From contig NZ_JAAGVY010000001.1 in assembly GCF_010686655.1 (NCBI RefSeq), forward strand, positions 1 to 64,000: 64,000 nucleotides of DNA. Reading direction: 5' to 3'. The stretch's first letter is position 1; every line of letters begins with the position of its first letter. Below the pieces are notes generated by a model. The model saw nothing but the letters and a program-made list of their open reading frames with translations. It made no database searches and had not been told where the DNA came from. Shown one piece after another: positions 34,837 to 63,567 of this stretch. The position numbers were made by a program, and so were the translations under genes. This stretch comes from Cryomorpha ignava. Lineage in GTDB: Bacteria; Bacteroidota; Bacteroidia; Flavobacteriales_D; Cryomorphaceae.

Positions 34837-35180
34837 GTGGTTTTTGGTTTTTAGTTTTTGGCTTTCGGTGAGTTTGAGTTAAAGTGGGTTTCTTATTAAA
34901 TGTTGAGTCAATTAAGCAGAAGGTGGGTTTGAGAGTCGGTTTTATAACTTCATTACCTTGCATACGCACTCCCAAAGATGGTCAATGAGATAGCGGCTAA
35001 TATTCGTGACAACGTTTTTTAGCATCAAATTCTCAAGGAATACACCTTCAAAGAATGAGGATTATGGGAAACGAAAAAAAATTATGTACTTCTAAGTATT
35101 AAAATTCCCATATATGGAACTATTTTACCTTATATGGAATATCTTCACTATATTTGCCTAAAAGCTATTTAGAATTCATA
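34837..35180 (+). other. Intergenic region with repeat and TA promoter
   Basis: 344 bp. It starts with a TTTTTGG-type repeat at 34837-34872 (as at 28119-28160) and ends with the promoter and operator of the higBA locus. No gene is supported between. Confidence 0.6.
35111..35156 (+). promoter_or_regulatory. Promoter and direct-repeat operator of higBA
   Basis: TATATGGAA occurs at 35111-35119 and again at 35131-35139, exactly 20 bp apart (two helical turns). The minus-7 box TATATTTG follows at 35149-35156, 25 bp before the toxin ATG. Such repeats fit binding of the HigA HTH protein to its own promoter (autoregulation is typical of type II systems). Confidence 0.6.
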
Positions 35181-35477
35181 ATGCATGTTATTTCGTTTAA
35201 AAAATTGCGGGAATATTTTGGAACAGAACCGAAATCAAGAGCGGCACTTGTTGAATGGCATGCAAAAACGAAAAAAGCAGAATGGAAGAATTTTGCGGAT
35301 ATGCGGAAAACTTTCAACTCTGTGGATTATGTAGGAAACGACAGGTTTGTGTTTAATATAAAAGGAAATAATTAAAGGATTGTAGCCATAGTCATTTTTG
35401 AAATCAAGAAAGTCTATATCCGCTGGATTGGCAATCATACTGATTACGACAGGCTAAAAGAAATAAATGAAATATAA
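35181..35477 (+). pseudogene. higB: HigB-family toxin with premature stop
   Basis: Full-length reading from ATG 35181 gives MHVISFKKLREYF, then EWHAKTKKAEWKNFADMRK and VFNIKGNN. Then there is TAA at 35373-35375, followed in the same frame by RIVAIVIFEIKKVYIRWIGNHTDYDRLKEI and a normal stop at 35475-35477. HigB toxins have NxYRL at the break, so the TAA most likely stands where a Tyr codon (TAT/TAC) was. HigB is an mRNA endonuclease of about 98 residues in this family; the catalytic C-terminal strands lie after the stop, so the protein is inactive unless the stop is read through or is a sequencing error. The antitoxin gene follows after 3 bp. Confidence 0.75.
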
Positions 35478-35480
35478 AAA

Positions 35481-35840
35481 ATGAAAAACATATCAGATAA
35501 GGCATACCTTAAAGCGAATGATCGCCTAGAGGAATTACTTAAGCAAGTGAGTAATGACACTCCTTATGATTCTCCGCTATTGTTAGAACTTTCAGATGTA
35601 AGCGATGTCATCGAACAATACGAGGAGATTCATTACCCAATTGAACTTCCTACACTAAATGAAATGATAGAGTTGCGCATGTTCGAAATGAACTTAAAAC
35701 GAAAGGATCTCGCCGAGCTTTTGAATACAAGTGCTTCCCGAGTAAGCGAATACCTGAACGGAAAAAGGGAAATCACGCTAAAAGTGGCGAAAGACCTGCA
35801 CAAAAAATTGAATATTGATGCAGAGATTATTTTGCAGTGA
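35481..35840 (+). CDS. higA: HigA-family antitoxin, HTH domain
   Basis: 119 residues, intact. A cro/C1-type helix-turn-helix at about residues 64-115 (KRKDLAELLNTSASRVSEYLNGKREITLKVAKDLHKKLNI), preceded by an acidic N-terminal half that would neutralise the toxin. The gene is second in the operon, toxin first, typical of HigBA. It probably binds the direct repeats upstream of the toxin gene. It may now act as a stand-alone repressor, since the toxin is broken. Confidence 0.8.
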   Translation: MKNISDKAYLKANDRLEELLKQVSNDTPYDSPLLLELSDVSDVIEQYEEIHYPIELPTLNEMIELRMFEMNLKRKDLAELLNTSASRVSEYLNGKREITLKVAKDLHKKLNIDAEIILQ

Positions 35841-58692: not shown

Positions 58693-59349
58693 ATGGCATC
58701 TCCCACCGAAGAAAATTATCTAAAGGCTCTTTTTAATCTGAAAGATGAAGAAGGGAAAGTGAGTATTTCTGAACTTAGCTCTACCCTTGAAGTTAGTATG
58801 CCTACGGCAAATAGCATGGTAAAAAATCTGCTTAAAAAGGGGTTGATTATTTACGAAAAGTACAAGCCGATTGAGCTTACGGAAGAAGGCAAGAAAATGG
58901 CGGCTCTGGTGATCCGAAAACACCGCCTCACAGAGATGTACCTCGCCGAAAAGATGGGTTTTGGCTGGGAGGAAGTGCATGATATTGCCGAGCAAATTGA
59001 GCATATTAACTCGCCGATTTTCTTTGAGCGCATGGACAAGTTGCTCAACCACCCAAAAATTGATCCGCATGGCTCGCCCATACCAAATGCCCAAGGTATC
59101 ATTGCCGATTTAAAACACAAACCCTTAAATGAACACAAGCCTGGTGATGCAGTAAAGCTTGCCGCATTGGCACATTCATCAACTGAATTTCTCGATTTTC
59201 TAAATTCCCGAAATCTCAAATTGGGTACAGAGATTAATGTCATTTCTGTAGAGCCTTTTGACGGAAGTATGGTGGTGAGCTACAACGATCGGAAATCTGA
59301 AGGCCTTAGTGCTAAGGTTTGTGAGAGATTGCTGGTTGAGTTTCTTTAA
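58693..59349 (+). CDS. DtxR/MntR-family metal-dependent regulator
   Basis: 218 residues. N-terminal winged helix-turn-helix (TEENYLKALFNLKDEEGKVSISELSSTLEVSMPTANSMVKNL), the dimerisation and metal-binding helices (LIIRKHRLTEMYLAEKMGFGWEEVHDIAEQIEHI with His and Glu ligands), and the C-terminal SH3/FeoA-like domain (LKLGTEINVISVEPFDGSMVVSY). Full-length form of the Mn/Fe-dependent repressors. Divergent from the TonB receptor, so it likely represses iron or manganese uptake when the metal is plentiful. Autoregulation is possible. Confidence 0.92.
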   Translation: MASPTEENYLKALFNLKDEEGKVSISELSSTLEVSMPTANSMVKNLLKKGLIIYEKYKPIELTEEGKKMAALVIRKHRLTEMYLAEKMGFGWEEVHDIAEQIEHINSPIFFERMDKLLNHPKIDPHGSPIPNAQGIIADLKHKPLNEHKPGDAVKLAALAHSSTEFLDFLNSRNLKLGTEINVISVEPFDGSMVVSYNDRKSEGLSAKVCERLLVEFL

Positions 59350-59402: not shown

Positions 59403-59601
59403 ATGTGCATTTGGAGTTAGCGATGGAAAAAATGATCATAAGAAAAGTTCGTTTAAATTTAAGAGTCATGACGTTGAGCACACTTAAACGCCGCTAAGTC
59501 AGCACAAGCTTAGAAGAGAGTACGTCGCTCCATATCCATTTTTTCTTGGTAGTTTTCACTTGATATCATTATCTTCCCGTATATTTTTTTTACCAACCAC
59601 T

Positions 59602-61483
59602 ATGAAACAGCTTTTCTTATCACTACTTTTTGCGTCATTCGTAACTTTACTTTCAGCTCAAACTATTGTGGAATCTAATGAAGGAACAGTAGAGTTTATC
59701 GTTGATTCAATATTTGGCAACATGAACGAAATTACCGTAACGGGTTTTGCATTTAACGGAAGCCCTGAAGCAATATGCACATTTGAGAGTGAAGGGCCAG
59801 ATTTTCCAATAGCAAACGGCTTTGCATTAAGTTCTGGACATGTCAATAGCCTTACTGACGGTTTTGGCAGCTTATCAAATCCCTATCAAAACGACTCTGA
59901 TCTCCAATTATATCAATCTGCCGCTAATTTGTATGATTGCGTAAGTCTCGAAATAAATTTTATCGCAAATGAAAGTCAACTTGAACTTGCCTTTATTTTT
60001 GGGAGCGATGAATACCCAGCTTATATTTGTTCTCAATTCAATGATATAATGGGGATTCTCTTAAAACCTGATACTTCTGACGATTATGACATATATTCCG
60101 TAGTGCCTTTCACGAACATTCCAGTTACAGTAAATTCTTTAAACGGCCTTGGCCCTCAAGATTTTGATCTTGTGTTTTGCGATGAAGCCAATCCCGATTG
60201 GGAAGAAACCAGAAACCTACATTTACTATATAAATAATCAATCGGAAGATGCAAACGGAATTACAATTCCCGGATTTACTGTACCCTTAATTGCAACAAT
60301 GCCATTGATAATTGGCGACGCTTACACTCTAAAGATTGGAATTTGTGACACGGGCGACCCTTATTTTGATTCATCAGTTTTCATAAACTCCCAAAGCGTT
60401 AATTCAACTTACGACTGCCCGCTGCTTTCTGCAAATATTGGCGACGCCTGCGAATCAACTGGTTCAGGCACATCCCTTGTTACAGCCGATTGCGCTTGCG
60501 CCACAGTAACACAAACACCAGATATTGTAGTCAATGCCAGCTTTGATAACTTGCCTTATTTTGCAGAAGATACTATTCATTTAAACGTTAACACATTTAA
60601 TTTCAGCTCCTCGGTTTATCCTGATTATGAAATAAACATATATACTTCGCTGGTAGAAGAGTTTAATCCGGCAACAAGCACTTTACAAGCAACTTTATCT
60701 GCCGACGAATTAGCCGCTCTTGAAAGTGTTGAAGCAAATTTTGCGATCACCGATTTCAACTATCCCGTTTCTTCATTGCCCTATTTCGTAATAGTAGATA
60801 TACCCGCCGCACCGGGCGAGATTGTGGTAGAAAACAATAGAGCCATCTTATCTTTCACTTTTGAAGATAATAATTCAGTTTGCGTAAGCTTAACACCACA
60901 GTACTCTGAGATGACTCTTTTATCGGGTCAAACCAGTTTTGATTTTAGCTATAAAACATACAATCCCGGTCCGAATTATCTGACCGAATCACCCGTAAAT
61001 TTATATTGGTTCGAAGACTCAATATACAATGAGTCAGATATTTTAATTTCAGAATATCAGGGGCCGGGAATGAATATCGGTGGATCTCTCATCGTCAACA
61101 TCTTGCTAAACATTCCTCAACCTACAACTCAAAATCCGTATTACGTACTTGTTGTACCGCAGCCTATTGTAGTCGGCGGTTCTTCGGCTGATTACGCCGT
61201 GGCGAAAATTCAATTCAGTACCCTTTCGACAAAAAGCATTGATAAAACGGACTGGACAGCCTGGTTTGATGAAAACAAAAACCTGATTATTCAACCGGGC
61301 AACGATGCAAACGGAGTTTATACCTTTTCTCTTTTCGATCAACTCGGAAGAGAAGTGGTAAAAAGGAATGCAAAATCAGGATCCCAAACTACTGCCACAC
61401 AAGGTTTGTCTTCGGGAGTATATATGCTTCAGATTGAAACCGGATCGCAATTGATATCTGCGAAGCTTGCTCTCATTCAATAG
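59602..61483 (+). pseudogene. Frameshifted choice-of-anchor L / T9SS surface protein
   Basis: Two frames join to one gene of about 627 codons. Frame 1 (ATG 59602) has a signal peptide (MKQLFLSLLFASFVTLLSAQ) and the choice-of-anchor L domain (FGSDEYPAYICSQFNDIMGILL, a near-perfect match to the family pattern F-G-S-D-E-Y). It ends at 60237. The continuation lies in the next frame from about 60206 on (KPETYIYYINNQ, then IPGFTVPLIATMPL and YTLKIGICDTGDPYFDSSVFI), beta-domains and a T9SS sorting domain at the end (FSLFDQLGREVVKR, LSSGVYMLQIETG). An extra base near 60202-60208 (GAAGAAACC, expected GAAAAACC) explains the shift. Real mutation or sequencing error cannot be told. Confidence 0.75.
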
Positions 61484-61645: not shown

Positions 61646-61680
61646 ACAATACTAACTACTCAATACCAACTACTCCCTTA
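61646..61680. repeat. ACTACTCAATACC-type short repeat
   Basis: Degenerate words ACTAACTACTC, AATACCAACTACTCCC next to the end of the esterase gene, similar in style to the other intergenic word repeats. Short and of low significance alone. Confidence 0.4.
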
Positions 61681-62359
61681 CCAACGGCCCCAATACTTCC
61701 CATACATTTTCAGCCACAATCTTAGCTCCGGCAGGATTTGGATGAATTCCATCATCTTGATTTAGCGAATCAACTCCGCCGACATCTTTAAGTAGAAAAG
61801 GAATTAGCTCCACATTTTTTTCTTTTTGAATCTGGCCGTAAATAGCATTGTACTTTGCACCGTAATCCTGCCCCATGCTGGGTGGAACCATCATTCCCGC
61901 AAGTAAAATAGTCGCTTCGGGAAACGCTTTCCGTACCCGATCTATCATACTAATTAAATTCTTTTTGGTTTCTGCCGGTGGTAGCCCGCGCAGACCATCA
62001 TTTGCACCGAGCTCCAGCACAAAAATATCGACATTCTCGTTTTCCAAAATCCAGTCTATACGGCTGAGGCCGGTTGCGGTAGTTTCACCACTTACTCCCG
62101 CATTTACTACGGTATATGGGAGATTTAACGAATCTATTCTGACTTGAATCAGTGCCGGGAACGACTCGTCTGCCTCAACTCCATATCCCGCAGACAGGCT
62201 ATTGCCGAAAAAGAGAATAATTTTTTTCTTAGCATTTGCCTTTTCATCGGCTGGGATTTCACTTTGGGTTTTTTCTGAAGTTTTTTCAGTTTCAGAAGTG
62301 GTACAACTTATCAAAAAGATAATTAGAAAGAGGGTAAGCAGATGAATGGACTTCAGCAT
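61670..62359 (-). CDS. GDSL/SGNH arylesterase-type lipoprotein
   Basis: 229 residues. Lipoprotein signal with LISC lipobox (Cys19). After a Glu/Lys/Thr linker the hydrolase domain begins: FFGNSLSAGYG (block I, nucleophile Ser), NAGVSGETT (block II Gly), LELGANDGL (block III Asn), DGIHPNPAGAKI (block V Asp-x-x-His). These are TesA-like multifunctional thioesterase/arylesterase features; here membrane-anchored. The stop lies in the repeat region near 61670. No neighbour is clearly linked. Confidence 0.9.
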   Translation of the reverse strand: MLKSIHLLTLFLIIFLISCTTSETEKTSEKTQSEIPADEKANAKKKIILFFGNSLSAGYGVEADESFPALIQVRIDSLNLPYTVVNAGVSGETTATGLSRIDWILENENVDIFVLELGANDGLRGLPPAETKKNLISMIDRVRKAFPEATILLAGMMVPPSMGQDYGAKYNAIYGQIQKEKNVELIPFLLKDVGGVDSLNQDDGIHPNPAGAKIVAENVWEVLGPLVRE

Positions 62360-62526: not shown

Positions 62527-63567
62527 TTATAGCGTTGCCAACCTACTATTGTACAAATAGTTGGAGTACAAATTTTTATATCTCACTTTTCGCTCAATAG
62601 ATTTCACAACCTCTGTGGCAAAATCTTCCTCATACATTTGCGACATGATATTTAATCCGCCGGGGCTGAACACGTTTATCTCCATTAACTTATTGCCTAC
62701 AATATCTATTCCCACCAGGAACATTCCGTCCTGAACCAATTTCGGGCGCACAATTTCTGCAAGCTCAAGAATCTGGTCGGTCATTTTTACTTTTTCCGGT
62801 CTTCCACCTGCATGTATATTGCTGCGAATATCGCCGCTTGCATTTACCCTTTGCATCATTGCGTATTTTCCGTTTACCTGAAGCGGCTCACCGTTCATTA
62901 AGAAAAGACGGGTATCTCCATTCTTCGCTTCAGCCAAATATTCCTGCGCTATTACATATCCGTCCCTGCATATCGCATCAATAGTTTGGGTAAGGTTGTG
63001 TTCGTTTTTCTTGTCCATCATAAACACATTTTTGCCCCCCGAACCTTGCAAAGGTTTCAATATCATTTTATTCTTTTGCTCTTTAAAGAAATCCTTTATC
63101 TCTTTTTGATCTCTTGAAATAATCGTTTTTGGACGTAATATTTCAGGAAAATGCTGAAAATACATTTTATTGACAGCGCTTGCCAAACTACTTGGGTGGT
63201 TTATGACCAATACCTTATCATTCACAGCGATACCTCCAAAAATAAACGCCGCATTCTGCGCCCAGTCTCTATCATTTATTTCATCAGAAGGATCGTTTCG
63301 CAAAAACAAAACATCCAGATCTTCAGACGTGATACGCGAAAATTCTTCTTTTTGCATAGCTTTAAAAAAGGTTTCCTGCGATTTAAAAGTACTGCCCTTT
63401 ATGGTTTTACATCGTGCAGAAAAATGTCCGTTTGAAGCATAAGCCAGCTCACCAATGCCTATAAAATAAACATCATTGTCTCGCTTATAAGCAGCATATC
63501 CAATAGCGGCAGTCGTATAATTCGGCTGCTCGGTACTGTGGTCGTTGATAATGAATGCTATTTTCAT
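62527..63567 (-). CDS. GshB-like ATP-grasp (glutathione synthetase family) protein
   Basis: 346 residues, ATP-grasp fold: MKIAFIINDHSTEQPNYTTAAIG at the start, LRNDPSDEINDRDWAQ, LKPLQGSGGKNVFMM for nucleotide binding, and VGIDIVGNKLMEINVFSPGGLNIM for metal/substrate binding. It resembles prokaryotic glutathione synthetase, but the companion gamma-glutamylcysteine ligase is not seen and the upstream neighbour is a QEGLA-family protein, an association that recurs in Bacteroidota as far as I recall. Another peptide or amino-acid ligation is possible. Confidence 0.8.
   Translation of the reverse strand: MKIAFIINDHSTEQPNYTTAAIGYAAYKRDNDVYFIGIGELAYASNGHFSARCKTIKGSTFKSQETFFKAMQKEEFSRITSEDLDVLFLRNDPSDEINDRDWAQNAAFIFGGIAVNDKVLVINHPSSLASAVNKMYFQHFPEILRPKTIISRDQKEIKDFFKEQKNKMILKPLQGSGGKNVFMMDKKNEHNLTQTIDAICRDGYVIAQEYLAEAKNGDTRLFLMNGEPLQVNGKYAMMQRVNASGDIRSNIHAGGRPEKVKMTDQILELAEIVRPKLVQDGMFLVGIDIVGNKLMEINVFSPGGLNIMSQMYEEDFATEVVKSIERKVRYKNLYSNYLYNSRLATL

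Follow-up and report, generated by a model that had tools for sequence, protein, structure and literature searches.

A choice-of-anchor L surface-protein gene of Cryomorpha ignava, probably broken by a recent 7-bp tandem duplication

A direct tandem doublet of a short sequence is a classic product and substrate of slipped-strand events, and the heptanucleotide simple-repeat contingency loci of Haemophilus influenzae and other bacteria are multi-copy arrays. Waite and co-workers reportedly described, in 2001 and again in 2003, spontaneous sequence duplications in pneumococcal capsule genes, which their titles present as phase variation. Three nontypeable pneumococcal isolates that carry slip-strand or tandem-repeat mutations in a capsule gene are described as keeping the potential to revert, and the reversion frequency expected in the pneumococcus for inserts up to nine bp is at most about 1e-5 (PMC4022640). 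For frameshifted genes in general, the GeneTack phase-variation class requires a tandem repeat near the frameshift together with a cluster of at least five frameshifted genes, and where a BLASTp-validated frameshifted gene stands alone, the GeneTack authors expect a sequencing error and not a genuine indel (PMC3711429). A search of one open-licence library of papers found nothing on the choice-of-anchor L domain, nor on phase variation combined with type IX secretion (T9SS) and frameshift.

Here we describe a gene of Cryomorpha ignava that is split between two reading frames at a perfect 7-bp doublet. It resembles the pneumococcal capsule duplications in that an apparent direct duplication breaks the frame of a cell-surface gene and could in principle be reversed. 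However, the capsule duplications are phase variation according to their titles, whereas the split gene is represented by a single allele in one assembly and its unit is a short one of 7 bp. With the heptanucleotide contingency loci it shares the unit length of seven and a surface-type product, but those loci are multi-copy and the split gene has two copies, found once in the genome. The choice-of-anchor L proteins with a T9SS type A sorting domain have in common with it the signal peptide, the domain order and the motifs FGSDEY... and NPxW...YY.NN; in contrast to these proteins, its domain spans two frames and no intact protein is encoded. We consider that this gene, whose product would be a surface or secreted protein exported by the T9SS, has probably been broken by one recent 7-bp tandem duplication in the late choice-of-anchor L linker, and the locus is best read as a null allele that arose recently in one member of a surface-protein family.

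The sequence analysed (the window) is the first 64 kb (64,000 bp) of contig 1 of a 5.0-Mb genome in 149 contigs, whose assembly is stated to be 99.85% complete with 0.1% contamination. On the forward strand, the head reading frame (59602-60237) extends from an ATG at 59602 to a TAA at 60235-60237, i.e. 211 codons plus TAA, and contains an N-terminal signal peptide and the first two thirds of the choice-of-anchor L domain. The signal peptide was assigned by eye to the first 20 residues (59602-59661), and relatives start likewise in the profile alignment. The domain profile choice_anch_L (NF038133, curated cut-off 27 bits) matches the head over profile positions 7-150 with 84.4 bits, positions 11-150 being placed at 59722-60147, and the final ~9 residues of the head lie outside the family frame. 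The tail reading frame (60143-61483, same strand) contains no stop between 60143 and a TAA at 61481-61483 and follows the family frame from ~60218. It comprises the last third of the domain (profile positions 155-219 at 60221-60400, 35.6 bits against the same cut-off), a middle part without family match and a C-terminal T9SS signal at 61295-61468, where the type A sorting domain TIGR04183 scores 39.3 bits (cut-off 23) and the overlapping Pfam Por_Secre_tail 28.7 bits (cut-off 27). The whole choice-of-anchor L domain is therefore not found in one reading frame but is cut between head and tail, which overlap by 92 nt. Codon use follows the same partition, with log-odds per codon of +0.22 for the head in its own frame (-0.31 and -0.60 in the other frames) and of +0.18 for the tail (-0.45 and -0.35). 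These results agree with the original prediction as to the identity of the gene, a choice-of-anchor L protein that carries a T9SS signal and is divided by a change of frame, and as to its anatomy, signal peptide and part of the domain in one frame, remainder and sorting signal in another. The genome also encodes SprA, a core protein of the T9SS, as judged by a match to the SprA_N family. Single-sequence structure predictions of head and tail gave a mean pLDDT of 32.8 and 34.4, respectively, too low to be informative, and Rfam and tRNA scans of the window returned no matches.

Several features of the surroundings were recorded. A run of eight T residues lies at 59584-59591, 10 bases upstream of the ATG of the split gene. 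On the other side, a tandem repeat with a 14-bp unit (61647-61675, 2.1 copies, 93% matches) follows the split gene and reaches the end of an adjoining gene at 61670-62359, which is esterase-like by eye. A second, partial copy of this esterase-like gene is located just outside the window (L074, ~G000:C1:66491-66964) and covers 158 of 229 residues at 63% identity, with 287 bp at 77.7% DNA identity. The ATP-grasp gene at 62527-63567 on the reverse strand (RimK-like by eye) encodes a protein up to 88% identical to records named as flavobacteria, e.g. Pricia, whereas a DtxR-like gene (by eye) at 58693 is at most 61% identical to its counterparts in the searched genomes of its own family; the ATP-grasp gene may therefore have been acquired by horizontal transfer. 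Further away, a HigB-like toxin ORF (35154-35375, forward strand) precedes an HTH ORF (HTH_3, 35481-35840, forward strand) that probably encodes the antitoxin, both by Pfam. An in-frame TAA ends the HigB match at position 46 of the 74 in the profile; past this stop the frame stays open for ~34 codons, with a sequence that by eye resembles the rest of the domain; the HigB-like gene therefore also looks broken, by a stop codon.

To locate the break in the split gene, read-throughs were scored against a family profile built from 35 aligned relatives of the head only, the split gene itself being kept out. The source loci were 36, namely all 7 paralogues of the same genome and the best match in 29 of the 51 other matching genomes, and one of them (L044) was dropped because it is itself broken. 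With no other genome of the genus among those searched, the relatives of the head show 25-39% identity among the matches listed, with 37% for the best relative. Of 31 read-throughs, those switching frame within 60201-60222 scored best, with 192.6-193.9 bits. Taken singly, head and tail reach 128.1 and 63.1 bits, respectively, and a read-through that switches at the stop (after 60234) reaches 186.1 bits. Inside this zone the scores differ by ~1 bit, too little to place the switch any finer, and the top values at 60216-60222, just right of the doublet, consequently do not discriminate. The zone contains the site, 60202-60208, at which the frames had been predicted to part.

The same scores bear on programmed +1 ribosomal frameshifting, by which a full protein would be made from the two frames as they stand. 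The overlap of 92 nt between the frames and the codon bias kept by both head and tail would suit such a mechanism. However, a switch at the stop scores 6.5-7.8 bits less than switches within 60201-60222, and this zone contains no stop codon, nor are its codons exceptionally rare (AGA 10.1 and CTA 5.9 per 1000, of 11,813 codons). Moreover, unbroken relatives show no frame change there: a conserved frameshift site, as expected for programmed +1 frameshifting, is lacking in the family, in which 44 of 48 genes are without a frame break in the domain. We regard programmed frameshifting as extremely unlikely, and it was set aside, together with a start of its own for the tail and with two separate genes, because of the way the profile is divided and the frame in which the conserved motif lies. 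A tail with its own start would moreover give a product without signal peptide.

Within the zone, the sequence AGAAACC is present at 60204-60210 and again, identical and adjacent, at 60211-60217 (forward strand), forming a perfect tandem doublet at 60204-60217. In the split gene, 22 nt separate the W codon of the NPDW motif (60199-60201) from the YY codons (from 60224), whereas the spacing from W to YY is five residues (15 nt) in all 23 relatives that fill both anchor columns; the remaining 12 of the 35 that were aligned, in which at least one anchor is missing and the interval holds 1 to 5 residues, are uninformative on spacing. The local excess over the relatives, 22-15 = 7 nt, is the same as the repeat unit. 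The excess of seven, the unit of seven and the net gain of +1 mod 3 at the break agree, and a single 7-bp tandem duplication is therefore our reading of the lesion. A search of the 5.0-Mb genome gave one occurrence of the doublet and none of its reversed control. The doublet is one of 8 perfect 7-mer doublets in the window; Tandem Repeats Finder (minimum score 30) did not list it. The chance that a 7-mer doublet starts in a given 22-bp zone is 0.0018 by Markov simulation and 0.0024 from the count of the 7 others, both after-the-fact values because the doublet was spotted before the repeat search. The independent support for the duplication is thus the W-to-YY spacing, not the chance value of the doublet. 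Doublets of 4 bp, which also shift the frame by +1, are common (175 in the window), but their unit length does not match the excess of 7 nt.

The gene had been predicted to carry a one-base frameshift that restoring one base would mend. The sign of that correction is wrong: with a net excess of +1 mod 3, adding one base would not join the frames, and the doublet together with the excess of exactly 7 nt indicates that the lesion is probably not a one-base change. With its sign corrected, the earlier version becomes a one-base insertion, and the counterpoint to a duplication is that the ancestral linker could have been two residues longer before a single-base change. A one-base skip anywhere in 60201-60222 does give the full profile match of 192.6-193.9 bits. 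However, such a read-through needs a 2-residue insertion relative to the family profile exactly at the junction, which would be a further 6-nt difference arising independently at that spot, and the perfect doublet would be left to chance (0.0018-0.0024). We consider this version very unlikely. There is indeed no long homopolymer at the break, as the original prediction stated, but its dismissal of slippage on that ground was misleading, since a tandem doublet is present.

Both the origin of the doublet by duplication and the existence of the allele in the organism itself are inferred. The rival view is that the gene is intact and the break an artefact of sequencing or assembly. The sequence comes from a single draft assembly of 149 contigs, and the expectation of the GeneTack authors for lone, BLASTp-validated frameshifted genes (PMC3711429) points to such an error. 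The HigB-like ORF in the same window, come upon by chance, fits errors or real decay alike. Against an artefact stand the completeness of 99.85% and the contamination of 0.1%, and two other pairs of same-strand ORFs in the window, overlapping by 65 and 74 bases, belong to separate families and are not split genes. A clean 7-bp duplication without a homopolymer is, in addition, not a usual base-calling error. Other genomes of the family contribute 3 further broken copies, also from drafts, which would be in line with errors; on balance we think an artefact unlikely.

These copies came from a survey of 8 genomes of the family, in which 51 rows were joined to 48 genes. Four of the 48 are broken inside the domain: the split gene; L072 (G005:C92), with an in-frame stop and then a later frame change; L068 (G003:C259, near 1.2 kb), part of whose domain is lost to a deletion; and G003:C66, with two rows in different frames (from the table only). 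The 44 others include one gene cut by a contig end (G005:C122). Two further genes were not counted as broken, one whose frame seems to change just past the domain (G003:C250) and one with a TAG near its start in one search and none in the other (G007:C118). Outside the family, the frame of L069 (G029:C42) changes at an earlier point of the domain, and assembly Ns interrupt G032:C76. The lesions differ and therefore give no hint of a conserved switch site; the broken genes are sufficiently explained if family members are lost now and then, or by draft-genome errors. Neither a second copy nor another allele was found in the genome itself, where matches to the head are at most 34% identical and matches to the tail are partial. 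In a named genome collection, from which the organism's own or very near genomes may be left out, 100 pattern matches to the tail included 0 relatives. An orthologue by position was sought with tblastn of head and tail in the surroundings of the best DtxR-like matches in 10 related genomes; no match was found within flanks of up to 1.5 kb, beyond which a gene would escape this search.

Reversible on/off switching, in which the 7-bp doublet would be gained and lost by slipped-strand mispairing so that a population holds expressed and silent alleles, is a rival explanation. It is suggested by the surface-type product, by a short tandem repeat exactly at the frame break and by the undamaged downstream frame. 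A tandem repeat near the frameshift is one of the features that GeneTack asks of phase variation (PMC3711429), and among the cases cited as phase variation are spontaneous duplications of sequence in capsule genes of the pneumococcus (PMC4022640). However, the cluster of at least five frameshifted relatives that GeneTack also asks for (PMC3711429) is not seen here. There are two copies only, not the multi-copy hypermutable tract found at the break of simple-repeat contingency genes, and the doublet is absent elsewhere in the genome. The other 7 of the 8 choice-of-anchor L genes found in this genome with NF038133 run through the domain without a break, and the lesions of the other broken genes found in the family are different. 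With reversion of inserts up to nine bp expected at no more than ~1e-5 (PMC4022640), a 7-bp doublet would be a possible but slow switch. Switching of this kind seems improbable, and we are similarly doubtful of a low-rate reversible form in which duplication and loss of seven bases would toggle the T9SS sorting signal and a minority of cells would display the protein. Phase variation had been one of three options offered for the locus, next to recent decay and sequencing error. Only the doublet and the surface-type product speak for it, and recent decay is the best supported of the three.

The recent null allele thus remains our preferred reading, and the following course of events may be proposed. 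A single 7-bp tandem duplication would have hit the conserved linker late in the choice-of-anchor L domain. As seven is not divisible by three, translation would depart from the family frame, add about nine foreign residues and stop at 60235. The truncated product would keep the signal peptide but be without the sorting signal and the final part of the domain; it would presumably reach the periplasm, would not be sorted to the surface and would probably be degraded, and export of the tail is not expected either, since it lacks a signal peptide. That the 421 codons of the tail contain no further stop and keep their native bias makes the event look recent, and the rest of the gene would be intact in the other frame because the duplication is young. 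Unbroken homologues exist and the tail is otherwise undamaged, as is expected of a pseudogene formed by a recent indel.

The type of lesion matters, since a short tandem duplication is harder to dismiss as a base-calling error than a one-base change and is revertible. Apart from its value for annotation, the split gene is an ordinary broken gene. Within the set of eight choice-of-anchor L genes of this genome it marks one as silent, which may aid the annotation of surface proteins in the lineage.
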